A stretch of DNA of 64,000 nucleotides from Robertkochia solimangrovi (GTDB lineage Bacteria > Bacteroidota > Bacteroidia > Flavobacteriales > Flavobacteriaceae): positions 744,001 to 808,000 of the forward strand of contig NZ_QKWN01000001.1 of the NCBI RefSeq assembly GCF_007279655.1, given 5' to 3'. Shown here one piece after another: positions 5,004 to 56,356 of this stretch; positions within the stretch are counted from its first letter, which is position 1, and every line of letters starts with the position of its first letter. The translations under genes were made by a program, and so were the position numbers. The notes below the pieces were generated by a model that was not told the DNA's origin, ran no database searches, and saw only the letters and a program-made list of their open reading frames with translations.

Positions 5004-5834
5004 TTATAGTTTACGAACCCAGATATTTCTGAAGCTTACACCGCTATTATCATGATGATCCTGTAATTTTAACGGTCCGTCACCATGCTTTTCATCTTTT
5101 GGCCATCCGATGTATTCGGTGGTTCCATAAAGCACTGTATGGTCTTGTACAAGCACACCGTTCAGTAAAACCGTGATGGTGGCTGCTTTGGTCTTATTAC
5201 CGTCCTTATCCCACTGCGGAGCATGATAGATAATATCATATTTCTGCCATTCGCCGGAAGGGTTGGCAGCATTTACCAGGGGAGGGTATTGTTTGTATAA
5301 AGAACCTGCTTGCCCGTTCACATAGGTTGGATTGTCGTAATTATCCAACACTTGTAGTTCGTATTTTCCCTGGAGGAAAATGCCGCTGTTGCCACGATGT
5401 TGACCTTCTCCGCGAGGTGTTTCAGGGTTTTTCCATTCTATGTGTAATTGTATATCGCCGAAACGCTCTTTGGTCTCGATATCACCAGCTCCATCTTTAA
5501 CGGTCATACTTCCATCGGGATTGATGATCCATTTGGCTGCCTCTCCGTTGTCCACACTTTTCCATGCGTCCAGATTGGATCCGTCGAAAAGGATCTCTGC
5601 ATCGCTCGGAACATTGTTTTCTGCACTCACAGGCGTAACCTTAGCCGGTACGGGTTCATAATATTCAGTGTCTTCCGGAGTAGTTGGAGACGGACCGGAA
5701 TACTTTTCAGCCGTATAGGCGGAAACAACTCCCGGATTTGACTCTTTTTGCATGGTTACCGGAGCTTCCTCCTTGGTCTCATTACAGGAGATGATAAGGA
5801 AGCTGGAAACAAATAACAGATTTAAAGTTCTCAA
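5004..5834 (-). CDS. DUF1080 (3-keto-disaccharide hydrolase-like) lipoprotein, copy A
   Basis: A 276-residue secreted lipoprotein. The N-terminal signal ends in LIISCNET, a lipobox Cys at about residue 17. It is followed by a low-complexity linker to about residue 75 and then one DUF1080 (PF06439) concanavalin-like domain with ILFDGSNLDAWKS, GNSGIFLQGKYELQVLD and a C-terminal LQDHHDNSGVSFRNIWVR. Members of this family act on 3-keto-glycosides. It is the last gene of the minus-strand unit and lies 2 bases from a paralogue. Surface or periplasmic hydrolysis or elimination of 3-keto-glycosides is inferred from family and neighbours. Confidence 0.88.
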   Translation of the reverse strand: MRTLNLLFVSSFLIISCNETKEEAPVTMQKESNPGVVSAYTAEKYSGPSPTTPEDTEYYEPVPAKVTPVSAENNVPSDAEILFDGSNLDAWKSVDNGEAAKWIINPDGSMTVKDGAGDIETKERFGDIQLHIEWKNPETPRGEGQHRGNSGIFLQGKYELQVLDNYDNPTYVNGQAGSLYKQYPPLVNAANPSGEWQKYDIIYHAPQWDKDGNKTKAATITVLLNGVLVQDHTVLYGTTEYIGWPKDEKHGDGPLKLQDHHDNSGVSFRNIWVRKL

Positions 5835-5836
5835 GA

Positions 5837-6586
5837 TTAAAGGCGTTTGATTTTAATATTTTTGAAGGCAACTTCATTACCGTGGTCCTGCAGACAGATC
5901 TTTCCGGATTCACTTTTTCCGAAAGCTTCCCAAGCTTTGAATTTGGAATTTGCAACCATGTTGTCCCACTCCTCTCCATGAACCGGAAATTCAACAACAC
6001 GCTTTCCGTTGAGATCTACACTTCCTTTATTCTCATTATGATCGATGCGGATCACAAAGTGATTCCATTCCCCGGCTGGATTTACCGCATCGTCGAAAGC
6101 TGGAGCTACAAGGTCATAAAGTGCGCCGGCCTGATGAGTTTTCCCTGCTTTGGCATCGGGATGTCTTTCATTATCGAGAACCTGAATTTCAGGGCCACTC
6201 ATATACGGTTCTTCGTATTCCGGTAATTCCTGAACCGCCCACATAATTCCGCTGTTGCCTCCTTCAGAAATATTCCAGTCCAGAGTAAGTTCAAAATTGG
6301 TAAAAGTCTCGTCGGTAACGATATTGTGACCGGAACTTCCATCAGGCTTGAAGATCAGCACGCCGCCTTCGATCTTCCATTGCTCCGGCATAACATCATC
6401 AGCCTCACCGTAAGTGTGCCAGGCATCCGTATTGGTGCCATCAAAAAGTACTTCCCAGTTATCCTTGGTTTCAGTCATAGCGGGTGTTTCCTTTTCAGTC
6501 ATTGTAGCGGGTTCTTCTTTCGGTTTGTTTTCCTTGCAGGCAAATAAAAGAAGTAGCGCAACCGCGGTTATACTTTGTTTGATCAT
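5837..6586 (-). CDS. DUF1080 (3-keto-disaccharide hydrolase-like) lipoprotein, copy B
   Basis: A 249-residue lipoprotein: the signal MIKQSITAVALLLLFACKEN has its lipobox Cys at residue 17. The DUF1080 domain spans about residues 40-249, with VLFDGTNTDAWHTYG, GGNSGIMWAVQE, EIQVLDNERHPD and the closing LQDHGNEVAFKNIKIK. It is clearly paralogous to the gene just downstream but diverged in the loops, so the two may act on different anomers or at different steps. Two bases separate it from copy A, and four bases from the TIM-barrel gene upstream, which suggests one transcript. Confidence 0.88.
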   Translation of the reverse strand: MIKQSITAVALLLLFACKENKPKEEPATMTEKETPAMTETKDNWEVLFDGTNTDAWHTYGEADDVMPEQWKIEGGVLIFKPDGSSGHNIVTDETFTNFELTLDWNISEGGNSGIMWAVQELPEYEEPYMSGPEIQVLDNERHPDAKAGKTHQAGALYDLVAPAFDDAVNPAGEWNHFVIRIDHNENKGSVDLNGKRVVEFPVHGEEWDNMVANSKFKAWEAFGKSESGKICLQDHGNEVAFKNIKIKRL

Positions 6587-6590
6587 GGAT

Positions 6591-7643
6591 TTATAGATTT
6601 AAGATTCTTTTCAGTTTATTTTCATCGATCTCAGCACCGGCAAAATCATCAAATGCTTTTTCCGTTGCTTCTATGATATGTCTTTGAATAAAAGGAGCAC
6701 CTTCCCGTGCACCCTGTTCCGGACTTTTGATACAACATTCCCATTCCATCACGGCCCATACATCACAACCATACTGGGTCAATTTGGAGAAGATGCGCTT
6801 AAAGTCGATCTGGCCATCACCCAGAGAACGATACCTTCCAGCCCGGTCACCCCAGTTATTGTAGCCTCCGAATGCACCTTTTTTTCCGGTAGGGTTAAAT
6901 TCTGAATCCTTTACATGAAATGATTTTATGAATTCGTGGTAGTGATCGATGTATTCGATATAATCTAATTGTTGTAAAACAAAATGCGAAGGATCGTATA
7001 AGATGTTAACGCGCTTATGATTTCCGGTGGCCTCCAGAAATCTTTCGAAAGTGTCTCCGTCATGAATATCTTCTCCCGGATGTACTTCGTAGCATACATC
7101 AACGCCATAATTGTCATATTCGTTAAGGATAGGCATCCAGCGTTTTGCCAGTTCTTCAAATCCCATTTCCACCAATCCAGGTGGTCGTTGTGGCCATGGG
7201 TGGAAGGTATGCCATAACAAAGCTCCGGAAAAGGTCGCATGAACCTTGAGTCCTAGGTGATGACTTGCTTTGGCAGCCTTCTTTACGGTATCGACGGCCC
7301 AGGCAGTCCTTGCCTTTGGATTATTCTTAACAGCATCGGGAGCGAAATTATCGAACATGATATCATAAGCAGGATTTACCGCAACAAGTTGTCCCTGAAG
7401 GTGGGTAGAGAGTTCCGTGATCTCCAGTCCATAACTGTTGATCTTTCCTTTTAGTTCATCACAATAGGTCTTGCTTTCTGCTGCCTTGTCGAGGTCGATA
7501 AGAAAATCAACCCAGGTAGGAATCTGAATTCCCTTGTACCCAAGATCGGCGGCCCATTTACAAATGCCGTCAAGCGAATTGAAAGGAGCTTTGTCATCTA
7601 CGAACTGGGCGAGGAAAACGGCTGGTCCTTTGATTGTTTTCAT
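6591..7643 (-). CDS. Sugar phosphate isomerase/epimerase family (AP endonuclease 2 TIM barrel)
   Basis: A 350-residue cytosolic TIM-barrel protein of the xylose-isomerase-like/IolE-type superfamily. Candidate metal ligands appear on successive strands: Glu in VCYEVHPGED, Asp/His in ILYDPSHFVLQ, His in SFHVKDSEF and Glu in AVMEWECC. There is no signal peptide, unlike the other TIM barrel of this locus at 10155-11156. Together with the adjacent Gfo/Idh gene it probably isomerises or dehydrates the imported keto-sugar. The exact reaction cannot be read from the sequence. Confidence 0.85.
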   Translation of the reverse strand: MKTIKGPAVFLAQFVDDKAPFNSLDGICKWAADLGYKGIQIPTWVDFLIDLDKAAESKTYCDELKGKINSYGLEITELSTHLQGQLVAVNPAYDIMFDNFAPDAVKNNPKARTAWAVDTVKKAAKASHHLGLKVHATFSGALLWHTFHPWPQRPPGLVEMGFEELAKRWMPILNEYDNYGVDVCYEVHPGEDIHDGDTFERFLEATGNHKRVNILYDPSHFVLQQLDYIEYIDHYHEFIKSFHVKDSEFNPTGKKGAFGGYNNWGDRAGRYRSLGDGQIDFKRIFSKLTQYGCDVWAVMEWECCIKSPEQGAREGAPFIQRHIIEATEKAFDDFAGAEIDENKLKRILNL

Positions 7644-7670
7644 AAGTCTTTTTCTCTTTTTTTATTTCAT

Positions 7671-8813
7671 TCAGGACAAAGGAGTCCATGCAGTATTATT
7701 CTTGTCACTTTGTACAGCTGCGTACATGAATTTAACTCCACGCAGGCCGTCTTTTACAGTAGGATATTCTTTCTGCGGAGAGGGTTCTCCGTTCAGTTCT
7801 GCCATGAGGTTGATGGCGAAGTTTCTGTAAATCGTCGCGAAGGCTTCCAGATACCCTTCCGGATGTCCTGATGGCACCCTGTTGGTCTGAGCTTCCTCAT
7901 ACAGGTCGTTACCCCCCGGCGTAAATACCTTAAGAGGTTTGTCCAGCCAGCGCGTTAGTAATTTGTTTGGTTCTTCCTGACCCCATTCCAGGCTTCCTTT
8001 TTCTCCATAGACTCTGATCGCGAGATTGTTCTCTTCTCCGGTAGCGATCTGCGAGAACGACATGGTTCCTTTGGCGCCGTTGTCGAGTCGTACCAGGATA
8101 TTTCCGTCATCATCGAGGATACGTCCTTTTCCGAAACGACCCAGGTCTGCAGCAAGTTCAGCGATCTTGAGGCCGGTAATATATTCCAGTAGATTTTCCG
8201 CATGGGTTCCAATGTCGCCCAAAGCTCCTCCAATACCCGATTTCGATGGGTCTACACGCCAGGAAGCTTGTTTGTTATCGGTATTTTCCACATCGGTGGC
8301 CATCCAGCCTTGAAGATATTGAACCTGGACTTTACGTATCTTTCCCAGGTCTCCTTTTTGGATCATAGTCTTTGCCTGCTTCACCATCGGATAACCGGTG
8401 TAATTGTGAGTGAGGGCAAAATGAAGTCCGGTGTTTTCTACCAGGGAAACCAGTGTTTCAGATTCTTCTATTGTGAGGGTCATGGGTTTGTCACAAACCA
8501 CATGAAAGCCATTTTCCAATGCCAACTTTGCAGGCCCGAAATGCATGTGATTGGGCGTGACGATCGCTATAAAATCCATGCGTTCTCCTTTCGGAAGTTC
8601 CTTTTCCTTGAGGATCATTTCTTCAAAACTGGCATAGCAACGGTCTTCCGGAAGAAAAAGTGCTTTTCCTGACTTTTTCGATTTCTCCGGAGTACTGCTA
8701 AAAGCGCCGCATACCAGTTCGATCAGGCCATCCATCATGGAAGCCTTTCTGTGAACATCACCGATGAAAGAACCGATTCCTCCACCAACCATTCCCATTC
8801 TTATTTTTCTCAT
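7671..8813 (-). CDS. Gfo/Idh/MocA family NAD(P)-dependent oxidoreductase
   Basis: A 380-residue protein with an N-terminal Rossmann domain (GMVGGGIGSFIGDVHRKA, residues 8-25) and the family motif VVCDKPMTLTIEESETL, whose Lys is catalytic. A C-terminal substrate domain contains GGALGDIGTHAENLLEY, where the His is a usual proton relay. It abuts the transporter gene (8814) and lies 27 bases from the TIM-barrel gene. In a 3-keto-glycoside pathway such an enzyme would reduce the 3-keto-sugar to the parent hexose or oxidise a related position. That role is inference. Confidence 0.88.
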   Translation of the reverse strand: MRKIRMGMVGGGIGSFIGDVHRKASMMDGLIELVCGAFSSTPEKSKKSGKALFLPEDRCYASFEEMILKEKELPKGERMDFIAIVTPNHMHFGPAKLALENGFHVVCDKPMTLTIEESETLVSLVENTGLHFALTHNYTGYPMVKQAKTMIQKGDLGKIRKVQVQYLQGWMATDVENTDNKQASWRVDPSKSGIGGALGDIGTHAENLLEYITGLKIAELAADLGRFGKGRILDDDGNILVRLDNGAKGTMSFSQIATGEENNLAIRVYGEKGSLEWGQEEPNKLLTRWLDKPLKVFTPGGNDLYEEAQTNRVPSGHPEGYLEAFATIYRNFAINLMAELNGEPSPQKEYPTVKDGLRGVKFMYAAVQSDKNNTAWTPLS

Positions 8814-10046
8814 TTATTGTGCTTTGTATTCAACTTTTTCATTTCGGAATAAAATAGCAAATAATATCAGGACTACAAAAGCAAATCCGGCAGGATATAT
8901 CCAGATTTTTTCCCAGATGTGGGTGCCGTTTTCCAGCAGGAATGTATCCGTGATCTTACCGGCTACCCAAAAACCGATCAGCATCCCTACTCCATAAGTT
9001 GCAAGTGTAATCAATCCCTGTGCGGCACTCTTTACCTTAGGTCCTGCTTTGCTGTCAGTATAGATCTGTCCTGAAACAAAGAAGAAGTCGTAACAAATAC
9101 CGTGTAAAGCGATCCCGATGATAAGCATGAATGCCAGTTCTCCTGAATTTCCATAGGCGAATAGCAGGTAACGAAGCGTCCAGGCCAGCATACCTGCGAG
9201 TATAGTCTTTTTAAATCCGAATCTTTTAAAGAAAAAGGGAAGTAGTAACATGAAGAGTACTTCCGAGATTTGCCCGATGGTCATTTTTCCGGTTGGGTTT
9301 TCCACTCCGATCTCCGCAAGAAAAGGGTTTGCATTCTGATAGTAGAAAGCCAACGGTATGCATATAAGTATGGAGGCGACAAAGAAGAAAAGAAAGTTCT
9401 TGTTCTTCAGTAACCCAAGCGCTTCAAGTCCTAGTATATCAGACAGGCTCACTTTTTTACTTTTATCGACCTTCGGCGGTGTCTTAGGGAGCGTAAAGCT
9501 GAATATTCCTAGGAAAGCGGAAGCGATAGCTACCATAAGGAAGGTGTTCTTTAGCATTCCTTCAGCACGGCCTTCGGCAGAATCCCAAAAGAAGACATAA
9601 CTGATCAGGAGTCCTGCCACGATCCAACCGATGGTGCCGAATACCCGCACGAAGGAAAATTGTTTCGCCGGGTCGGTCATTTGGTTGAAGGAGATGGAAT
9701 TCACCAGTGCGAGGGTAGGCATATACAAGATCATATAGCTCAATACCAGCGGGTAAAAACTTCCGAAGTCGGTACTCTGATACATCATATACATCAATAT
9801 GGCACCGACAAGGTGGAGAATACCAAGTATTCTTTCAGCATTGAAATACCGGTCTGCGATGAGTCCGATAATAAAAGGAGCGATGATCGCTCCCCAGGAT
9901 TGTGTAGAGAATGCCATTGCGGTCTGTGCGCCTGTAGCATTCAGGTTATTACCGAGAAAGGTTCCCAGCGTTACGAACCAACCGCCCCAGATGAAGAATT
10001 CGAGAAACATCATCAGGGAAAGTTGAAATTGTATTTTACTTTTCAT
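8814..10046 (-). CDS. Major facilitator, nucleoside:H+ symporter (NHS) family-like
   Basis: A 410-residue inner-membrane transporter with about 12 hydrophobic segments. The start MKSKIQFQLSLMMFLEFFIWGGW and FVRVFGTIGWIVAGL resemble NupG/XapB-type permeases (PF03825). Family annotation would say nucleoside permease. Its position between a Gfo/Idh enzyme and sugar-modifying genes makes glycoside or keto-sugar uptake a fair alternative. The end touches the start of the Gfo/Idh gene with no gap. An inverted repeat lies in the 108-base gap upstream. Confidence 0.85.
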   Translation of the reverse strand: MKSKIQFQLSLMMFLEFFIWGGWFVTLGTFLGNNLNATGAQTAMAFSTQSWGAIIAPFIIGLIADRYFNAERILGILHLVGAILMYMMYQSTDFGSFYPLVLSYMILYMPTLALVNSISFNQMTDPAKQFSFVRVFGTIGWIVAGLLISYVFFWDSAEGRAEGMLKNTFLMVAIASAFLGIFSFTLPKTPPKVDKSKKVSLSDILGLEALGLLKNKNFLFFFVASILICIPLAFYYQNANPFLAEIGVENPTGKMTIGQISEVLFMLLLPFFFKRFGFKKTILAGMLAWTLRYLLFAYGNSGELAFMLIIGIALHGICYDFFFVSGQIYTDSKAGPKVKSAAQGLITLATYGVGMLIGFWVAGKITDTFLLENGTHIWEKIWIYPAGFAFVVLILFAILFRNEKVEYKAQ

Positions 10047-10081
10047 ATGGTTTTAGATAAGGTATTTAACGGGTCATAGGT

Positions 10082-10115
10082 AACCCCTGTGTTTTAAAGG
10101 TAATCAACAGGGGTT
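10082..10115. repeat. Inverted repeat between transporter and Tat TIM-barrel genes
   Basis: AACCCCTGT (10082-10090) and ACAGGGGTT (10107-10115) form a perfect 9-base inverted repeat with a 16-base spacer. No T-run follows on the minus strand, so it is a poor terminator. A regulator site or RNA stability hairpin inside the operon is possible. Confidence 0.5.
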
Positions 10116-10154
10116 TATGAATTTTCAGATATTTGACAGTCGAATAAATACGCG

Positions 10155-11156
10155 CTAGGCAAGTTCGCCAGCAACTTTCAGAAGCAGTGCCTTGGTTGCG
10201 AGAATACCTTCCTCTTCAGAGAGTCGGTCTCCTTCATACTCCACTCCTACATAGCCTGTATAACCTGCGTCCTTAACGATCTTCATCATTTTCAGATAAT
10301 CGATTTTGGTTTCATTTCCTTTAGCATTAAAATCATAGGATTTTGCACTTACGCCCTTTGCAAAGGGCATCAGTTCACCTACACCCTGGTACATGTCATA
10401 TTCTTCCACGCAATCACCACCCCAGTTTCCTTCTCCATCACGTTTTACACAGAAGTTTCCGAAATCGGGTAAAGTTCCGCAATTGTCCATTCCAACGGCG
10501 GTAAGTACTTCCGCAAGTAAGGCAGCATCTGAAGAAAGCCAGCCATGATTCTCTACGATTACGTTTACGTTTTGTTTAGCGGCATATTCTGAGAGTTCTG
10601 TAAGCGAAGCGATAGAATTCTCTTTCCAAACTTCAGGATCCTTTGAGCCGAAAAGGTTTACCCGCATCGAATGGCATCCTAGTCCAGCAGTTGCATCAAC
10701 CCATTTAAAATGATTCTCAACACCAGCTTTTCTAAGCGTCTGATCAGGGGTGGCCATCACACCTTCTTCTTCCGGTAGGTCGACCATCATGATCTGATTC
10801 TTCATCCCGTGGTCATCGCTGCGTTTTTTCAATTCCTTCACAAGTTGTTCCATTGGATTGGCAGCACCGGAATATTTTTCCAGTTCTTTTGCATATAACT
10901 GAGAAACATACTCGAGGCCTTCAAATCCCCATCCACTTGCTTTCGCTGCAAAATCCATAGGGCTCACGCTTCCGTCCCATATCATTCTGTGAATAGACCA
11001 CTGAGCCAGAGAGAGTTTAAAGAAAGGGTCTGCTGAAGCCATTGCTTCAGGCAGATCTGAGGGTTTTTCGGTTTTCTGTTTGCATGCGTATAAACCTAAT
11101 AATGAGACAGCTACACCTGCGCTACCGCTATTCATCAAAAATTTTCGTCTATTCAT
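10155..11156 (-). CDS. Exported TIM-barrel (xylose isomerase-like) protein with Tat signal
   Basis: A 333-residue protein. The N-terminus MNRRKFLMNSGSAGVAVSLL has the twin-arginine motif, followed by a hydrophobic stretch and LYACKQK, a likely lipobox. The mature part is an AP-endonuclease-2-like TIM barrel with candidate metal residues in VIVENHGWLSSDA, GTLPDFGNFC and VGVEYEGD. Folded export fits a metal enzyme acting in the periplasm alongside the GMC dehydrogenase encoded divergently. It is the first gene of the minus-strand unit. An epimerase or eliminase role on oxidised glycosides is inferred. Confidence 0.86.
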   Translation of the reverse strand: MNRRKFLMNSGSAGVAVSLLGLYACKQKTEKPSDLPEAMASADPFFKLSLAQWSIHRMIWDGSVSPMDFAAKASGWGFEGLEYVSQLYAKELEKYSGAANPMEQLVKELKKRSDDHGMKNQIMMVDLPEEEGVMATPDQTLRKAGVENHFKWVDATAGLGCHSMRVNLFGSKDPEVWKENSIASLTELSEYAAKQNVNVIVENHGWLSSDAALLAEVLTAVGMDNCGTLPDFGNFCVKRDGEGNWGGDCVEEYDMYQGVGELMPFAKGVSAKSYDFNAKGNETKIDYLKMMKIVKDAGYTGYVGVEYEGDRLSEEEGILATKALLLKVAGELA

Positions 11157-11260
11157 AAAAGTAGTTTGTTGGCAATTATTTTAACATATTATCAATTAAA
11201 CAGTAAGTTAATTTAATTCTTAACAATTAAAAGATTCATCTAATGTAAAAAATTAATTTC

Positions 11261-11268
11261 TATATTTG
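11261..11268 (+). promoter_or_regulatory. Promoter -7 box for the GMC operon
   Basis: TATATTTG is an exact TAnnTTTG match, 31 bases before the GMC start codon. The 143-base AT-rich divergent gap (11157-11299) must also hold the promoter for the minus-strand unit, but no clear minus-strand box was seen. Confidence 0.6.
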
Positions 11269-11299
11269 AAAGGCTACATTAAAACTAACAGTATTTTAA

Positions 11300-13015
11300 A
11301 TGAAGACTTTCTACTATAACCCCCCGCAGGAAGAGTACGATGCCATCGTAGTCGGAACCGGAATTTCCGGTGGTTGGGCAGCAAAAGAATTATGTGAAAA
11401 CGGATTGAAAACTCTGGTTCTTGAAAGAGGTCGGATGGTTGAGCATGTTAAAGATTATACCACTGCTCATCTCGATCCCTGGGATCTCCCCAATGCCGGT
11501 AATCCTACTAAGGAAACACGGGAACGCAAGTTCAAACAACACCGTACCGGTTATACCACCAATGAGGCAAATCAGCATTTTTTTGTCGATGATATAAAAC
11601 ACCCTTATAATGAAGACCGTCGTTTCGACTGGATGCGTGGTTACCACGTGGGTGGTCGTTCTATAATGTGGGGACGTCAAAGCTATCGGATGGGTGATGT
11701 CGATTATGAAGCAAATCTCAAGGATGGAATAGCCGTGGACTGGCCGGTTCGTTATGCAGAACTTAAGCCATGGTATGATAAAGTAGAGGAATATATAGGA
11801 GTAAGTGGTGTTAATGCCGGACTTCCACAATTGCCGGATGGAATTTTCCTTCCGCCTATGGAGTTGAATTGTGTGGAACAGCATTTACAAAAATCCATTT
11901 CTGAGAAATACAGTGACCGAATGCTGATGATCGGAAGAGCGGCACATATAACTCAGGGAACAAAGCCCGGACTGGGAAGAACGAATTGCCAATACCGGAA
12001 TCGTTGTATGAGAGGTTGTCCTTACGGAGCCTATTTCAGCAGTAATTCCTCCACGCTTCCGGCAGCCGATGCGACCGGAAATATGACGCTCAGACCTAAT
12101 TCAATTGTGCATGAAGTGATCTATGATGATGTTACGCAAAAAGCGACCGGAGTCAGAGTGATCGATGCACTTACCAAAGAAACCATCGAATTCAAGGCCA
12201 AGGTGATCTTCCTTTGCGCTTCTGCCATCGCTTCTGCATCGATTTTGATGCAATCTAGATCAGAGCGATTTCCTGATGGAATGGGGAATGATTCCGGAGA
12301 ATTGGGACACAATCTGATGGATCATCATTTCAGAGCCGGAGCAAGCGGAGATCATGATGGTTATAAAGACAGCTATTTTAAAGGACGTCGGGCCAATGGT
12401 ATCTATATTCCGAGGTTTAGAAATCTCGGTGGCGATACCGACCATAAAGATTTTATACGAGGATATGGTTACCAGGGTGGTGCCAGCCGAAGTAATTGGG
12501 CTGAGTCCGTTAGTGAGTTAGGATTTGGAAAGGAACTCAAAGAGGCGATTCTCGCTCCAGGTGACTGGAATATGGGAATGACCGCTTTTGGAGAAACACT
12601 TCCTGACCATAATAATAGAATGTATCTGGATTATGACAAGAAGGATGAGTGGGGTCTGCCTACGGTGACCTTCGATGCAGATTTCGGAGCCAATGAAATA
12701 GCCATGCGTGAAGATATGAAGGTGCAGGCAGCGGAAATGCTCGAGGCAGCCGGATTTAAAAATGTACGTACCTATGATGATATCGGAGGAATGGGACTGG
12801 GAATCCATGAAATGGGGACAGCCCGCATGGGTCGTGATCCGAAAACTTCCGTACTCAATAAGTACAATCAGCTTCATGCGGTTAAGAACGTTTATGTTAC
12901 AGACGGTGCTTTTATGACCTCGTCTGCCTGTCAGAATCCATCGCTTTCTTACATGGCATTCACGGCCAGAGCAGCGAATCACGCCGTAGAAGAACTCAAA
13001 AAAATGAACCTGTAA
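11300..13015 (+). CDS. GMC-family FAD dehydrogenase, large subunit (glucoside 3-dehydrogenase-like)
   Basis: A 571-residue flavoprotein. The FAD-binding site AIVVGTGISGGWAAKEL is at residues 15-31. MRGYHVGGRSIMWGRQS is a typical GMC flavin loop. Cys230, Cys236 and Cys240 (CQYRNRCMRGC) give the C-x5-C-x3-C spacing known for the 3Fe-4S cluster of FAD glucose dehydrogenases. The C-terminal GMC domain has IHEMGTARMG and SACQNPSLSYMAF. It has no signal peptide of its own. The next gene encodes the Tat-bearing small subunit, so co-export is expected. Likely oxidises C3 of glycosides and passes electrons to a carrier not encoded here. Confidence 0.92.
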   Translation: MKTFYYNPPQEEYDAIVVGTGISGGWAAKELCENGLKTLVLERGRMVEHVKDYTTAHLDPWDLPNAGNPTKETRERKFKQHRTGYTTNEANQHFFVDDIKHPYNEDRRFDWMRGYHVGGRSIMWGRQSYRMGDVDYEANLKDGIAVDWPVRYAELKPWYDKVEEYIGVSGVNAGLPQLPDGIFLPPMELNCVEQHLQKSISEKYSDRMLMIGRAAHITQGTKPGLGRTNCQYRNRCMRGCPYGAYFSSNSSTLPAADATGNMTLRPNSIVHEVIYDDVTQKATGVRVIDALTKETIEFKAKVIFLCASAIASASILMQSRSERFPDGMGNDSGELGHNLMDHHFRAGASGDHDGYKDSYFKGRRANGIYIPRFRNLGGDTDHKDFIRGYGYQGGASRSNWAESVSELGFGKELKEAILAPGDWNMGMTAFGETLPDHNNRMYLDYDKKDEWGLPTVTFDADFGANEIAMREDMKVQAAEMLEAAGFKNVRTYDDIGGMGLGIHEMGTARMGRDPKTSVLNKYNQLHAVKNVYVTDGAFMTSSACQNPSLSYMAFTARAANHAVEELKKMNL

Positions 13016-13027
13016 ATCTCCTAAGAA

Positions 13028-13669
13028 ATGGATAGAAGAAAAGCTTTAAGACATATCGGATATAGTGCCGGATTCATGGTGGCAACTCCAACAGTTTTGA
13101 GTATCCTGCAAAGTTGTACCACAGAACAGGCATCATGGATTCCAGCCAATCTTAGTGAAGATGAAGGGAAAATGCTTAAAAGGGTGGTGGATATCATCAT
13201 TCCTAAAACCGATTCACCTTCAGCTTCGGAAGTGAATGTTCCTGAATTTATGGATAAGTATATCGGGGATGCGATCAATGAGAATGATCAGATCATCGTT
13301 CGATGGAAAATAAAAGGTTTGACCGATCAATTAAAGGCTGCCTATAATGAAGATCCGTCAAAGATCACTGATGAAGAGTATACCGAATTCCTGACCAAAA
13401 ACCTGAAAGAAGCTTCGAAAGGGGCGTATGAGCTTTTTGGTAAATTTGATAGTTATACCGATGCGATCATGAAAGGGGAAGATATCGAATCTGAACCGCT
13501 GGTAGTGTCTTTTACTGCCCTTCATGATATCAGGGATATGGTGATCTTTGCCTATAAAAATAGTGAGATGGTGGGGGAACAGGTATTGGCCTATGATCCT
13601 GTGCCTGGAGCCTATATTGGATGTGATGACCTGCAAAAGCTTACCGGAGGTAAAGCCTGGTCCTTATAA
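13028..13669 (+). CDS. Gluconate 2-dehydrogenase subunit 3 family protein (Tat signal, GMC partner)
   Basis: A 213-residue small subunit (PF13618). The N-terminus MDRRKALRHIGYSAGFMVAT has a twin-arginine motif. A Cys at about residue 30 (LQSCTT) could be a lipobox. The mature protein contains the family pattern LKRVVDIIIPKTDSPSASE and VPEFMDKYIGD. It starts 12 bases after the GMC gene and ends before a terminator, making a two-gene operon. In known FAD dehydrogenases this subunit serves as chaperone and Tat escort of the catalytic subunit. Confidence 0.9.
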   Translation: MDRRKALRHIGYSAGFMVATPTVLSILQSCTTEQASWIPANLSEDEGKMLKRVVDIIIPKTDSPSASEVNVPEFMDKYIGDAINENDQIIVRWKIKGLTDQLKAAYNEDPSKITDEEYTEFLTKNLKEASKGAYELFGKFDSYTDAIMKGEDIESEPLVVSFTALHDIRDMVIFAYKNSEMVGEQVLAYDPVPGAYIGCDDLQKLTGGKAWSL

Positions 13670-13692: not shown

Positions 13693-13720
13693 ATCAATCC
13701 TGCTTTTTAGCAGGATTGAT
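13693..13720 (+). terminator. Rho-independent terminator after GMC operon
   Basis: The 11-base arms ATCAATCCTGC (13693-13703) and GCAGGATTGAT (13710-13720) pair perfectly around a 6-base loop and are followed by GCTTTTT. Confidence 0.85.
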
Positions 13721-50465: not shown

Positions 50466-50515
50466 CACCCTCAAAATTAATAATAGGGGTCGAGAACCCC
50501 GCTAATTAATGTATT

Positions 50516-52650: not shown

Positions 52651-54393
52651 ATGTCCTTTCAGATAAAAAAGACCTCAAAAGTTTACGATGTATGTATCGT
52701 GGGCTCCGGAGCCGGAGGAGGAATGGCTGCTAAGGTATTGGCTGAAGCAGGCTTCAGCATTGCCTTAATGGAAGCCGGACCCAACTTTGATCCGGCGAAT
52801 CCAGAACAACAAACTCAATTTAAATGGCCCTATGAATCACCTCGAAGAGGTGCCGGCACCACCCGTGCATTCGGTGATTTCGATATGGCATATGGAGGCT
52901 GGGATATCGATGGAGAACCTTATACTACCAAAGATGGTACTAAGTTCGACTGGTTTCGTTCCCGTATGCTGGGAGGGAGAACCAATCACTGGGGCAGAAT
53001 TTCTCTTCGATTTGGTCCGCTGGATTTCAAAAGAAAGGATCATGATGGTAAAGGAGATAACTGGCCAATAGGTTATGAGGATGTCAAACCCTATTATGAC
53101 AAAGTAGATAAGCTGATAGGAGTGTTCGGAACCAAGGAGAATTTGCCGAACGAACCCAACGGATTTTTTCTGCCACCTCCAAAACCCCGTCTCCATGAGA
53201 TGTATCTTAAAAAGCATGGAGAGAAGATGGGGTTGCCAGTGATTCCGGCAAGGTTATCCATTCTTACAAAGCGTATCGATAATCGTCGCGGTGCTTGTTT
53301 TTATTGTAGCCAGTGTTCGCGTTCCTGTAGTATCTATGGAGATTTTTCTTCCTCCTCGGTTTTGGTTAAACCGGCATTGGAGTATGAGAATATCGATCTT
53401 TATGTTAATGCGATGGTTCGTGAAGTACTAACCGATGAGAGTGGTAAAGCTTCCGGAGTGGCATTCGTTAATAAGGCCGATATGAAAGATTATGAGATCA
53501 AGGCTAAGGTTGTGATACTCGCTGCCAGTGCCTGTGGTTCTGCAAGAATTCTGCTGAACTCAAAATCTTCCAAATATCCTAACGGACTTGCGAATTCGAG
53601 TGGTGTAGTGGGGCGTTATCTGCATGATTCCACCGGATCTTCAAGAATGGCGCTTATACCTTCACTCATGGATCGTAAGCGATATAATGAAGATGGAGTT
53701 GGTGGAATGCACCTGTATGTACCATGGTGGCAAAATGATACTAAGAATCTCGGGTTTTCCCGTGGATATCATATAGAGTTCTGGGGAGGTATGGGAATGC
53801 CATCCTATGGAACCGGAATGGGTATGGAGCATCTGAATGGTCTTGTACCGGGAGCTGATGGTCAAATGAAAAGAGCCGGAGGGTTTGGTGCCGGACTTAA
53901 AAATGATGTACGTCGTTTTTATGGGGCAACCGTTGGTATGTCCGGAAGAGGAGAGAGTATTCCACAATTCAATAACTATTGTGAGATCGATCCGAACGTG
54001 GTAGATAAATTCGGTATTCCAGTCTTGCGTTTCCATTACAAATGGACAGATGATGAGGTTAAACAAGCTAAGCATATGCAGGATACCTTTGAAGAGTTGC
54101 TGACCAATATGGGCGGTATTTTTCTGGGGGATAAGCCCGGTGCGGATACTGATTACGGACTCGAAGCACCTGGTAGGATTATACATGAAGTGGGTACTAC
54201 CCGTATGGGAGATGATCCGAAGACTTCAGTAGTAAACAGGTTTAACCAGGCCCATGATGTTCCAAACCTTTTTGTGGTGGATGGGGGGCCTTTTGTGTCA
54301 CAGGCAGACAAAAATCCGACCTGGACCATTCTGGCTTTAGCCTGGAGAGCTTCCGATTACCTTATCGATGAAATGAAAAAAATGAATATTTAA
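52651..54393 (+). CDS. GMC-family FAD dehydrogenase, large subunit (second copy)
   Basis: A 580-residue flavoprotein paralogous to the one at 11300. The FAD loop is CIVGSGAGGGMAAKVL (residues 15-30). MLGGRTNHWGRISLRFG is the flavin loop. Cys216, Cys222 and Cys226 keep the C-x5-C-x3-C iron-sulfur spacing, with an extra Cys219 between. The C-terminal domain has IIHEVGTTRMGDDPKTS and QADKNPTWTILALAW. It lacks a signal peptide and is followed 10 bases later by a Tat-type small subunit. Substrate unknown; sugar or glycoside oxidation is likely. Confidence 0.9.
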   Translation: MSFQIKKTSKVYDVCIVGSGAGGGMAAKVLAEAGFSIALMEAGPNFDPANPEQQTQFKWPYESPRRGAGTTRAFGDFDMAYGGWDIDGEPYTTKDGTKFDWFRSRMLGGRTNHWGRISLRFGPLDFKRKDHDGKGDNWPIGYEDVKPYYDKVDKLIGVFGTKENLPNEPNGFFLPPPKPRLHEMYLKKHGEKMGLPVIPARLSILTKRIDNRRGACFYCSQCSRSCSIYGDFSSSSVLVKPALEYENIDLYVNAMVREVLTDESGKASGVAFVNKADMKDYEIKAKVVILAASACGSARILLNSKSSKYPNGLANSSGVVGRYLHDSTGSSRMALIPSLMDRKRYNEDGVGGMHLYVPWWQNDTKNLGFSRGYHIEFWGGMGMPSYGTGMGMEHLNGLVPGADGQMKRAGGFGAGLKNDVRRFYGATVGMSGRGESIPQFNNYCEIDPNVVDKFGIPVLRFHYKWTDDEVKQAKHMQDTFEELLTNMGGIFLGDKPGADTDYGLEAPGRIIHEVGTTRMGDDPKTSVVNRFNQAHDVPNLFVVDGGPFVSQADKNPTWTILALAWRASDYLIDEMKKMNI

Positions 54394-54403
54394 AGATCTG
54401 ATC

Positions 54404-55123
54404 ATGGACAGAAGAAAAAGTTTAAAAGCAATGTTCGCCGGTACGGTAACGTCCGGATTTATGTTTACATCCTGCCTGACCGATACTGAGAAATCGGCTG
54501 AGACTACAACTCCTGTTGCCGGTGATTCTGAAGAAGCTTCCGGTTATGGAAGAACTCCGGAAGAAGCTGCTCGTGATAAGGATCTGATGAGTACCACCTT
54601 CTTTAATGAGCATGAAATGATTACGCTGGCTATCGTTGCCGATATTATTATTCCGGCAGATGAAACTTCAGGGTCGGCTACCGATGCTAAAGTGCCTGAA
54701 TTCATTGAGTTCATCGTAAAAGATATGCCGCACTATCAAACTCCCGTTCGCGGAGGACTCCGATGGCTTGACTATGAAAGCAAGAAGCGTTTTTCAACAG
54801 AGTTCAAAGAAGCCAGTGAAGAACAAAGACTGGAGATCATCGAGGATATTGCCTACCCGGAAGAGGTGAAACCTGAACTTGAACAGGGTGCACGATCCTT
54901 TGCAACGATCCGAAATCTGGTATGTACCGGTTTCTTTACCAGTGAGATTGGTATTAAGGATATCGGATATATGGGGAATGTTCCCAATGTCTGGGATGGT
55001 GTGCCGGATGATGTATTAAAAGCGCATGGAGTAGCCTATGATGAAAGGATCCTTAGTGAAAGTATAAAACCTGAAGAGCGAAATGAAGTGGCTAACTGGG
55101 ATAATTATAATCCGGAAGGTTAA
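54404..55123 (+). CDS. Gluconate 2-dehydrogenase subunit 3 family protein (second copy, Tat signal)
   Basis: A 239-residue small subunit. The N-terminus MDRRKSLKAMFAGTVTSGF has a twin arginine, followed by MFTSCLTD, a possible lipobox Cys near residue 24. A low-complexity linker leads to the PF13618 region with LAIVADIIIPADETSGSATD and VPEFIEFIVKD. It pairs with the GMC gene 10 bases upstream. It is longer and more acidic than the first-locus copy (213 residues). Confidence 0.88.
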   Translation: MDRRKSLKAMFAGTVTSGFMFTSCLTDTEKSAETTTPVAGDSEEASGYGRTPEEAARDKDLMSTTFFNEHEMITLAIVADIIIPADETSGSATDAKVPEFIEFIVKDMPHYQTPVRGGLRWLDYESKKRFSTEFKEASEEQRLEIIEDIAYPEEVKPELEQGARSFATIRNLVCTGFFTSEIGIKDIGYMGNVPNVWDGVPDDVLKAHGVAYDERILSESIKPEERNEVANWDNYNPEG

Positions 55124-55177: not shown

Positions 55178-56356
55178 ATGAAAAAAGATAATTTTGAATC
55201 CCCTGATTATTATAATATCGATGATCTGCTTACTGAAGAGCAGTTGCTGGTAAGGGATGCAACAAGACAATGGGTAAAACGTGACCTGAGTCCGATCATC
55301 GAAGACTATGCCCAAAAGGCAGAATTTCCAAGACAGTTATTGAACGGACTCGCTGAGATCGGGGCTTTTGGACCTTATATTCCAGAGGATTATGGCGGCG
55401 CAGGTCTCGATCAGATAAGCTACGGACTCATCATGCAGGAGATCGAGCGTGGTGATAGTGGCATTCGATCCACCGCTTCCGTACAATCTTCTCTGGTGAT
55501 GTATCCGATCTTTGCGTATGGTAGTGAAGAACAAAAACGAAAGTTTCTGCCAAAACTTGCCAGCGGAGAGTTGATCGGATGTTTCGGACTTACCGAACCT
55601 GATCATGGATCGAACCCGGGCGGAATGGATACAAAGTTCTCTGATGAAGGAGACCACTATCTTCTCAATGGAGCCAAACTTTGGATCTCAAATGCACCTT
55701 TTGCTGATATCGCAGTGGTTTGGGCTAAGAACGAGGAAGGTAGAATTCACGGACTTATCGTGGAGCGAGGGATGGAAGGATTTTCGACTCCGGAAACCCA
55801 TAATAAATGGTCGCTCAGGGCTTCAGCTACGGGTGAATTGATCTTTGCGGATGTTAAAGTGCCGAAAGGTAATCTTTTACCTGGAAAAAGTGGACTCGGA
55901 GCTCCTTTAGGATGTCTTGATTCTGCACGATACGGTATTGCCTGGGGTGTGATCGGGGCTGCGATGGATTGCTATCATACGGCTTTGAAGTATGCCGGAG
56001 AACGTATGCAATTCGGTAAACCGATCGCCTCGTTTCAATTGCAACAGAAAAAATTGGCTGAAATGGTTACTGAGATCACAAAAGCCCAATTACTTGCTTT
56101 CCGTCTCGGACAATTGCGAAATGAAGGTAAGGCTACTTCTGCCCAGATTTCAATGGCTAAGCGCAATAACGTCGATATGGCGTTGAAAATCGCACGCGAA
56201 GCACGTCAGGTGTTAGGCGCAATGGGAATTACAGGAGAGTACAGTATTATGCGTCATATGATGAATCTGGAAAGTGTAATCACCTACGAAGGAACACATG
56301 ATATTCACCTGCTGATTACCGGAGCAGATATCACAGGAATACAGGCCTTTAAATAA
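55178..56356 (+). CDS. gcdH: Acyl-CoA dehydrogenase, glutaryl-CoA dehydrogenase type
   Basis: A 392-residue flavoenzyme. Many segments match glutaryl-CoA dehydrogenases: QSSLVMYPIFAYGSEEQKRKF, GCFGLTEPDHGSNPGGMDT, SLRASATGELIFADVKVP, LDSARYGIAWGVIGA, and the C-terminal NLESVITYEGTHDIHLLI with the catalytic Glu. It would oxidise and decarboxylate glutaryl-CoA to crotonyl-CoA in lysine/tryptophan breakdown. The saccharopine reductase gene at 19668 may act in the same pathway. No electron-transfer flavoprotein genes are nearby. Confidence 0.88.
   Translation: MKKDNFESPDYYNIDDLLTEEQLLVRDATRQWVKRDLSPIIEDYAQKAEFPRQLLNGLAEIGAFGPYIPEDYGGAGLDQISYGLIMQEIERGDSGIRSTASVQSSLVMYPIFAYGSEEQKRKFLPKLASGELIGCFGLTEPDHGSNPGGMDTKFSDEGDHYLLNGAKLWISNAPFADIAVVWAKNEEGRIHGLIVERGMEGFSTPETHNKWSLRASATGELIFADVKVPKGNLLPGKSGLGAPLGCLDSARYGIAWGVIGAAMDCYHTALKYAGERMQFGKPIASFQLQQKKLAEMVTEITKAQLLAFRLGQLRNEGKATSAQISMAKRNNVDMALKIAREARQVLGAMGITGEYSIMRHMMNLESVITYEGTHDIHLLITGADITGIQAFK

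Follow-up and report, generated by a model that had tools for sequence, protein, structure and literature searches.

A non-hydrolytic route of glycoside breakdown in four steps, namely oxidation, elimination, hydration and reduction, was reportedly set out in papers in Nature and Angewandte in 2024. In Bacteroides thetaiotaomicron a locus for disaccharides and glucosinolates spans BT2156–BT2160, and in Caulobacter LacB is the cytochrome c component of the three-component LacABC. Here we describe an eight-gene cluster at positions 5004–13669 of a 64,000-nucleotide stretch (the window) of the Robertkochia solimangrovi genome (4.4 Mb, 23 contigs), which probably breaks small sugar compounds by prior oxidation and not by water, and which we read, with a probability of roughly 0.72, as a split-compartment version of the known route. 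A preliminary description of this DNA had proposed an oxidative breakdown of 3-keto-glycosides with oxidation and cleavage in the periplasm and finishing in the cytosol; the match of a cytosolic enzyme to a hydratase, the alignment of one DUF1080 lipoprotein with its solved relatives and the counts of the gene set in related genomes bear this out in outline.

The four-step route as such is already published (PMC10628242, PMC13273386). In Agrobacterium tumefaciens, it involves elimination by AtOGE, a putative hydratase, AtHYD, and the Gfo-type oxidoreductase Oxo, the first step having been provided in that work by an oxidoreductase with its twin-arginine translocation (Tat) partner from Rhizobium GIN611 (PMC10628242). 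Lactose use in Caulobacter draws on LacABC, a DUF1080 protein, a transporter, two sugar epimerases and a sugar reductase; the transporter, of unstated family, is implicated by fitness data (PMC9007349). In B. thetaiotaomicron, oxidation falls to BT2158 (PMC11300592) and BT2157 is the DUF1080 lyase (PMC9007349).

The locus in the window shares with the A. tumefaciens pathway a hydratase and a Gfo/Idh oxidoreductase, its hydratase (HYD) probably belonging to the same enzyme family as the solved structure 8ro4. The latter is linked to A. tumefaciens. The two systems differ at the cleavage step, which is performed by AtOGE there and probably by periplasmic DUF1080 proteins and a Tat-type TIM-barrel lipoprotein (TatTIM) here; likewise, the carrier is a nucleoside:proton symporter (NHS) permease of the YegT type here, whereas an ABC sugar transporter takes its place in a Rhizobium relative. 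In common with the Caulobacter lac cluster are a (here predicted) C3 dehydrogenase, DUF1080, a transporter, genes of the TIM/epimerase type and a (here putative) sugar reductase. Unlike LacABC, the window cluster has no cytochrome c subunit, and relative to the Caulobacter genes it allows one TIM barrel to be identified as a probable hydratase and the family of the carrier to be named; the Caulobacter “epimerases” and transporter are plausibly a hydratase/eliminase and an NHS carrier. BT2156–BT2160 also combines a DUF1080 lyase with 3-keto chemistry, but there the Gfo/Idh-type BT2158/BT2159 oxidize, as against a GMC flavoenzyme in the window. Thus, the chemistry is known, and what is added here is the hydratase assignment, a family-wide module and the case for a YegT-type carrier that does not serve nucleosides.

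The Cytosolic Enzymes and the Predicted Chemistry

The gene product that pins down the chemistry better than any other of the locus is HYD, a cytosolic PF01261 TIM barrel (6591–7643, minus strand; 124.7 bits to the Pfam model). It aligns end to end (residues 1–350 of 350) with 8ro4, deposited under the name 2-hydroxy-3-keto-glucal hydratase, at 552 bits, with the next match at 148 bits, and its residues E186, H188, D217, H220, H243 and E300 are each kept in at least 97% of 91 alignment rows. At the sequence level its assignment as a 2-hydroxy-3-keto-glucal hydratase, as opposed to an isomerase, is well supported. The cytosolic enzymes had originally been supposed to reduce or isomerize the cleavage product; the reduction is retained, while an isomerase role of the cytosolic TIM barrel is ruled out by the full-length 552-bit match. 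Given a hydratase at this position, the cleavage of the 3-keto-glycoside is most likely a β-elimination, and the match to 8ro4 points to C3 oxidation, β-elimination, hydration and reduction as the likely route.

The adjacent gene encodes GFO (7671–8813, minus strand), a cytosolic Gfo/Idh oxidoreductase by Pfam, whose closest solved relative is 3v5n (390 bits), and which by analogy is the probable 3-keto-glucose reductase. GFO matched eight NCBIfam models without reaching the cut-off of any, so this label follows from the published order of the steps. Its inclusion in the BT2158 or BT2159 families was considered and rejected, the scores being 39.2 bits against a cut-off of 750 and 21.8 bits against a cut-off of 650.

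We advance the following sequence of events. The Tat-exported pair of GMC flavoenzyme and small subunit (SSU) would, as suggested by its relatives, oxidize the sugar C3 of a small glycoside in the periplasm, with its electrons probably going to a carrier encoded outside the cluster. The DUF1080 lipoproteins and TatTIM might then β-eliminate the resulting 3-keto-glycoside to release the aglycone or second sugar along with 2-hydroxy-3-keto-glucal. The YegT-type permease, judging by its linkage, by the exchange of carriers in its position and by its pocket, would move 2-hydroxy-3-keto-glucal or 3-keto-glucose across the inner membrane. In the cytosol HYD would convert 2-hydroxy-3-keto-glucal to 3-keto-glucose, a step well supported by its sequence, and GFO may finally reduce 3-keto-glucose to glucose.

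A Gene Set Conserved across the Flavobacteriaceae

The family sample comprised 149 Flavobacteriaceae genomes, one per genus and with the window genome included, which were searched with thresholds of E ≤ 1e-60 for the hydratase and E ≤ 1e-40 for PF03825. The hydratase is found in 71 of the 149, marking the module as a widespread trait of the genera sampled, one that annotation masks behind labels such as “sugar phosphate isomerase/epimerase” and “nucleoside permease”. Outside the window genome there are 71 loci, chosen by the presence of the hydratase (70 genomes, one of them with two); ten with short flanks were dropped, leaving 61 flanked by 8.5 kb or more upstream and 3 kb or more downstream. 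At these full-flank loci a GFO-type gene is present in 60 cases, TatTIM in 56, GMC in 55, SSU in 54, NHS in 47, DUF1080b in 42 and DUF1080a in 33, and all eight genes stand together at 20. Profiles built here left the counts of GMC, SSU, TatTIM and GFO unchanged and recovered a DUF1080 gene of any type at 54/61. The outer neighbors of the window cluster, a pyruvate kinase (pyk) and a leucyl-tRNA synthetase (leuS) named from sequence, are not kept: pyk is found at 0/61 loci and leuS gives a single stray match of 31% among the 61. Thus, the families do recur together in related genomes, and a block that recurs family-wide with changing outer flanks is more than a set of chance neighbors.

The closest named relatives of the hydratase come from Galbibacter (93%) and Robertkochia (92%), the latter (L014, L019) sharing both outer flanks with the window. 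These flank comparisons used the 80 closest hydratase relatives (L013–L092), which stand outside the linkage counts and also served for the TatTIM alignment. Farther afield, in 11 loci from the class sample and eight on plasmids, the gene order varies while most of the set is still together, with reordered loci seen in Hymenobacter, Xanthomonas sacchari, Halomonas (an unannotated locus with some frames in pieces), Pseudoalteromonas, Croceicoccus and Novosphingobium; the nine plasmid records, picked from 160 and 311 matching ones, are examples and not a sample. Smaller sets are found at L093 (GFO, HYD and DUF1080b), at L097 (HYD with an MFS gene) and in Rhizobium and Providencia. Hence, these genes move together as one set.

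The Gfo/Idh position is filled by either of two subtypes, which share about 70% and about 41% identity with GFO of the window, and a few loci have both; many loci also carry an additional GMC gene, in antisense orientation, between GFO and HYD (both among L013–L092 and L104–L174). BT2158-like genes neighbor 10 of the 61 modules, the one copy scanned, at L164, scoring 497 bits against the BT_2158 model cut-off of 750. By similarity, an AraC-type regulator with a cupin domain (scanned at L164:11992–13044) is encoded at 12/61 loci and is a candidate regulator, which was not seen in the window cluster.

The Exported Oxidation and Cleavage Enzymes

The Tat and lipoprotein signals of the proteins of the locus were read by eye from the sequence. 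GMC (11300–13015, plus strand), assigned by Pfam as the large subunit of a flavoenzyme, is a probable glycoside 3-dehydrogenase. The C-x5-C-x3-C motif noticed in it at the outset is real: C230, C236 and C240, which are conserved iron–sulphur cysteines, are each present in at least 97% of 86 rows, as are H503 and N546. Its partner SSU (13028–13669, plus strand; PF13618, 87 bits) is a Gluconate_2-dh3-type small subunit with a Tat-like signal, with R3, R4 and C30 conserved in 97% or more of 63 rows. By open frames and Pfam, the window cluster lacks a cytochrome c gene, so the electrons of GMC must pass to a carrier encoded elsewhere; the same genome has seven cytochrome c matches outside the cluster. 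Among the family loci cytochrome c is found in 0/61 by tblastn and 6/61 by profile search. A Hymenobacter-like cytochrome c is present, by tblastn, in 9 of the 19 class and plasmid loci (including L096, which is the same-family genome G065), and the Xanthomonas sacchari locus has an annotated one.

Two lipoproteins of PF06439 (DUF1080, named “3-keto-disaccharide hydrolase” in Pfam), both scoring far over the cut-off, are candidates for the cleavage. DUF1080b (5837–6586, minus strand; 160.6 bits), a candidate 3-keto-glycoside lyase, has the solved relatives 4jqt, 3osd and 8rr2, one of them named a 3-keto-disaccharide hydrolase, with which its QDHG motif aligns; the histidine of this motif, H235, is conserved in 97% or more of 55 rows (those below 40% identity excluded). 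Counting from the C-terminus, H235 may be equivalent to H275 of BT2157, and an H275N variant of a B. thetaiotaomicron lyase is described as deficient in hydration (PMC13273386). DUF1080a (5004–5834, minus strand; 144 bits, TTG start), a candidate lyase/hydrolase, belongs to a second subfamily, with 4qhz as its best solved relative (265 bits), a lipobox LIISC read from the sequence and a QDH histidine, H260, kept in at least 97% of 41 rows.

TatTIM (10155–11156, minus strand), a PF01261 Tat lipoprotein (78.7 bits), is related to the solved 4ovx, a protein of unknown function, at 260 bits. Its AlphaFold model (pLDDT 89) matches 4ovx and then the C-glycoside deglycosidases CGD, DgpB-C and DfgA-B, and D-tagatose 3-epimerases match it at similar E-values; from these comparisons of the model it is probably a periplasmic β-eliminase or epimerase. 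E202-N203-H204, D231 and E306 are invariant in 24 rows, the alignment having drawn 23 rows from the L013–L092 relatives.

The NHS Permease: Linkage, Carrier Slot and Pocket

The permease gene (8814–10046, minus strand; PF03825, 392 bits) encodes an NHS protein of the YegT type and the probable importer of the cleaved keto-sugar. PF03825 is found in 60 of the 149 family genomes: 55 have it along with the hydratase, five have NHS only, 16 the hydratase only and 73 neither. Among the 55 genomes having both, 54 encode them on one strand and no more than 9.2 kb apart, a linkage for which the Fisher p = 2.7e-20 is a description only that ignores shared ancestry; the changing gene orders are the better argument. 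In the class sample, an NHS gene is within 3 kb of the hydratase in nine of 12 hydratase genomes, the window's included. Thus, the combination with an NHS permease, which had been taken to be unusual, is the usual arrangement.

At 13 of the 61 family loci another carrier is encoded directly upstream of the Gfo gene, in the NHS position. The four of these that were scanned are PF07690 MFS_1 proteins and not PF03825, and a BLAST comparison of two representative ones with the window permease gave nothing significant. In all, the slot holds only NHS at 43 loci, only MFS at 13, both at four and neither at one, an exchange which implies that it needs a carrier for the compound of the pathway. A literature search returned no paper tying NHS permeases to an oxidative glycoside pathway, a weak negative with most subscription journals outside its coverage.

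In NupG the nucleobase is contacted by Q225, N228, Q261, Y318, F322 and F143, with R136, T140, E264 and D323 as the ribose and proton residues (PMC11241209), and four of these residues differ in YegT (PMC11979927). The window permease scores 324 bits with YegT (8zoj) versus 215 bits with NupG (7dl9). It retains the ribose contacts R136, T140 and E264, the proton site D323 and Q261, while W, A, Y, H and Y stand in place of F143, Q225, N228, Y318 and F322, giving the pocket W-A-Y-Q-H-Y. It shares its clade and pocket residues with E. coli YegT, which differs in its location in yegTUV, next to genes for an ADP-ribosylglycohydrolase and a sugar kinase; with E. coli NupG/XapB it shares the Pfam family, the ribose-contact and proton residues and Q261, and differs from them in the other five nucleobase-contact residues and in falling across a tree edge with a support of 1.0. 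E. coli YegT showed no significant nucleoside binding by isothermal titration calorimetry (PMC11979927), its transport of uridine, cytidine, xanthosine and gemcitabine went undetected (PMC11241209), and the accessible text of these two reports gives no substrate for it (PMC11979927, PMC11241209).

The same division runs through 90 distinct NHS genes collected from both samples at E ≤ 1e-40 (L096/L172 counted once), 61 of them linked to a hydratase and 29 not. W143, H318 and Y322 are present in 61/61 of the linked permeases; at the five compared sites, the nucleobase contacts of NupG/XapB are absent from all of these. The 29 unlinked genes divide into 23 with the NupG/XapB set FQNYF, five with the YegT set WAYHY and the odd L205 with WNHHF. 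The five with the YegT set adjoin genes of the oxidative-pathway type: L206 is a module with its hydratase on another contig; L195 neighbors GMC, Gluconate_2-dh3, a BT2158-like gene and a TIM barrel; L184 and L185 neighbor DUF1080 and Gfo/Idh; and L197, a weak case, has Gfo/Idh only. By contrast, profile searches of mostly about 7 kb on each side, less at contig ends, found DUF1080, GMC, the small subunit, hydratase and TatTIM beside 0/23 of the NupG-type genes; a Gfo/Idh gene lies about 4 kb from one of them (L192). Thymidylate synthase lies beside six of the 23 (L178, L180, L181, L182, L191 and L198). A single edge, with a support of 1.0 and a length of 0.85, splits 72 YegT-type from 25 NupG-type proteins in a 98-sequence tree, with L205 on the YegT side. 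Judged by its pocket residues, the window permease is more likely to carry a sugar fragment than a nucleoside.

As a separate observation, a gene with a bifunctional-nuclease domain is near 15 of the 23 NupG-type genes.

We see even odds that the YegT-type half of PF03825 as a whole imports sugar-derived compounds instead of nucleosides, in Bacteroidota the 2-hydroxy-3-keto-glucal or 3-keto-sugar arising from oxidative glycoside cleavage. Such a role for these “nucleoside permeases” is a fresh proposal, in which carrier family, signature and cargo are apparently new; it offers a candidate family and a residue signature for the step that would bring a reactive keto-glucal from the periplasm to the cytosolic hydratase. 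If true, the orphan YegT gains a substrate class, 66 of the 90 PF03825 genes read here are misnamed, and label-based searches for nucleoside uptake in marine bacteria are misled.

Alternative Explanations

Several observations weigh against the split-compartment pathway as laid out above. Shared ancestry runs through the linkage counts, which thus do not stand for independent events. The best solved relative of GMC is the large subunit of fructose dehydrogenase (131 bits), and its presumed C3 specificity is borrowed from its relatives. Each of the DUF1080 subtypes is missing from part of the loci (they are present at 42 and 33 of the 61), and seven loci have no DUF1080 gene at all by profile search. 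By eye, TatTIM apparently has S270 where related TIM barrels carry a metal-binding histidine, and without this ligand its chemistry may differ. A B. thetaiotaomicron lyase can also hydrate (PMC13273386), so the cargo of the permease might already be 3-keto-glucose. On a Rhizobium plasmid HYD and Gfo are accompanied by an ABC transporter, and on a Providencia plasmid (L215) the order is NHS-Gfo-HYD-Gfo, with GMC and DUF1080 missing from the annotation of its surroundings, from which it appears that parts of the module can serve other inputs. Finally, YegT of E. coli and Pantoea adjoins ADP-ribosylglycohydrolase and a sugar kinase and not a hydratase, and thus the pocket type by itself is no proof of this pathway.

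The last two points are also those that favor a variant in which the permease takes in a glycoside or 3-keto-glycoside that is still intact, and the periplasmic lyases have other compounds as their main substrates: the Providencia carrier may bring in a compound not yet oxidized, and the yegTUV setting is one in which a carrier of intact glycosides might be expected. We regard this variant as unlikely, albeit with some substance, as DUF1080a, DUF1080b and TatTIM have lipoprotein-like signals by eye and HYD and GFO have none, so that cleavage should precede such an import. That the locus is a pathway like LacABC of C. crescentus, specific for β-galactosides or other disaccharides, would account for the gene classes shared with the Caulobacter lac cluster (PMC9007349), and our search controls place PF03825 in Caulobacter vibrioides. 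The scarcity of cytochrome c genes at these loci (none in the window cluster, six of 61 family loci by profile) speaks against it, and we consider it rather improbable.

The preliminary description had allowed for a nucleoside-like substrate, and the locus could accordingly be imagined to degrade nucleosides or nucleoside-like N-glycosides with NHS as a true nucleoside carrier. The family name and Pfam label suggest as much, as do the conserved R136, T140, E264, Q261 and D323. Against this stand the changes to W, A, Y, H and Y at the five other contacts, shared by the E. coli YegT, for which no significant nucleoside binding (PMC11979927) and no transport of the four compounds named above (PMC11241209) were detected, and the location elsewhere of the NupG-type genes of the same phylum, six of 23 beside thymidylate synthase. 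A nucleoside substrate was hence dropped on the pocket residues, as one having very little likelihood. The idea that sugar-related genes without a joint function merely happen to adjoin each other can be practically dismissed, with the block being kept in tens of genera amid different outer flanks.

Layout of the Locus and Further Observations

All eight genes named at the start were confirmed by open frames and Pfam at their coordinates and in their families. The same evidence agrees that 5004–13669 has no glycoside hydrolase and no SusC/SusD pair of a polysaccharide utilization locus, all eight genes being of other families. SusC/SusD queries likewise found 0/61 in the family loci, a search of low sensitivity, given that the SusC annotated at L207 escaped its query.

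The genes from the permease to DUF1080a form a run of five with gaps of 0 to 27 bases. A gap of 108 bases separates the permease from the TatTIM gene, which allows for a separate transcript, and 143 bp (11157–11299) lie between TatTIM and the divergent GMC gene. This divergent region, read from the sequence, exists as first described; the shared promoter attributed to it was dropped as an established fact, as the pattern resembling a −7 box is no commoner in the window than chance. A single TATATTTG occurs in the region at 11261–11268, with 50 occurrences of the pattern in the window against 52.5 expected; the Bacteroidota −7 box is TANNTTTG. A terminator-like hairpin 3′ of the SSU gene (13693–13720, plus strand) is a consensus match only, of a kind found at eight sites against 8.9 expected by chance. 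No RNA family was matched in the cluster, the sole match in the window being an S16-Flavobacteria ribosomal leader (RF03138) at 50476–50510 (plus strand, 50 bits).

A paralogous pair of GMC and Tat-type Gluconate_2-dh3 genes is found at 52651–55123 of the window (plus strand), with neither hydratase nor permease adjoining; its GMC is 35% identical to the first, and the frame 3′ of the pair (55178–56356) is acyl-CoA dehydrogenase-like, as named from sequence only. Elsewhere in the genome, another contig (C22:77523–81452, L217) encodes a BT2157/58/59-like trio with a double DUF1080 protein and two Tat-like Gfo/Idh proteins, and on C11 a lone BT2158-like gene (L216:7715–9130; 470 bits, under the family cut-off) precedes the cluster by about 10.9 kb. 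The trio and the lone gene may represent a second, Gfo-based oxidative route in this genome.

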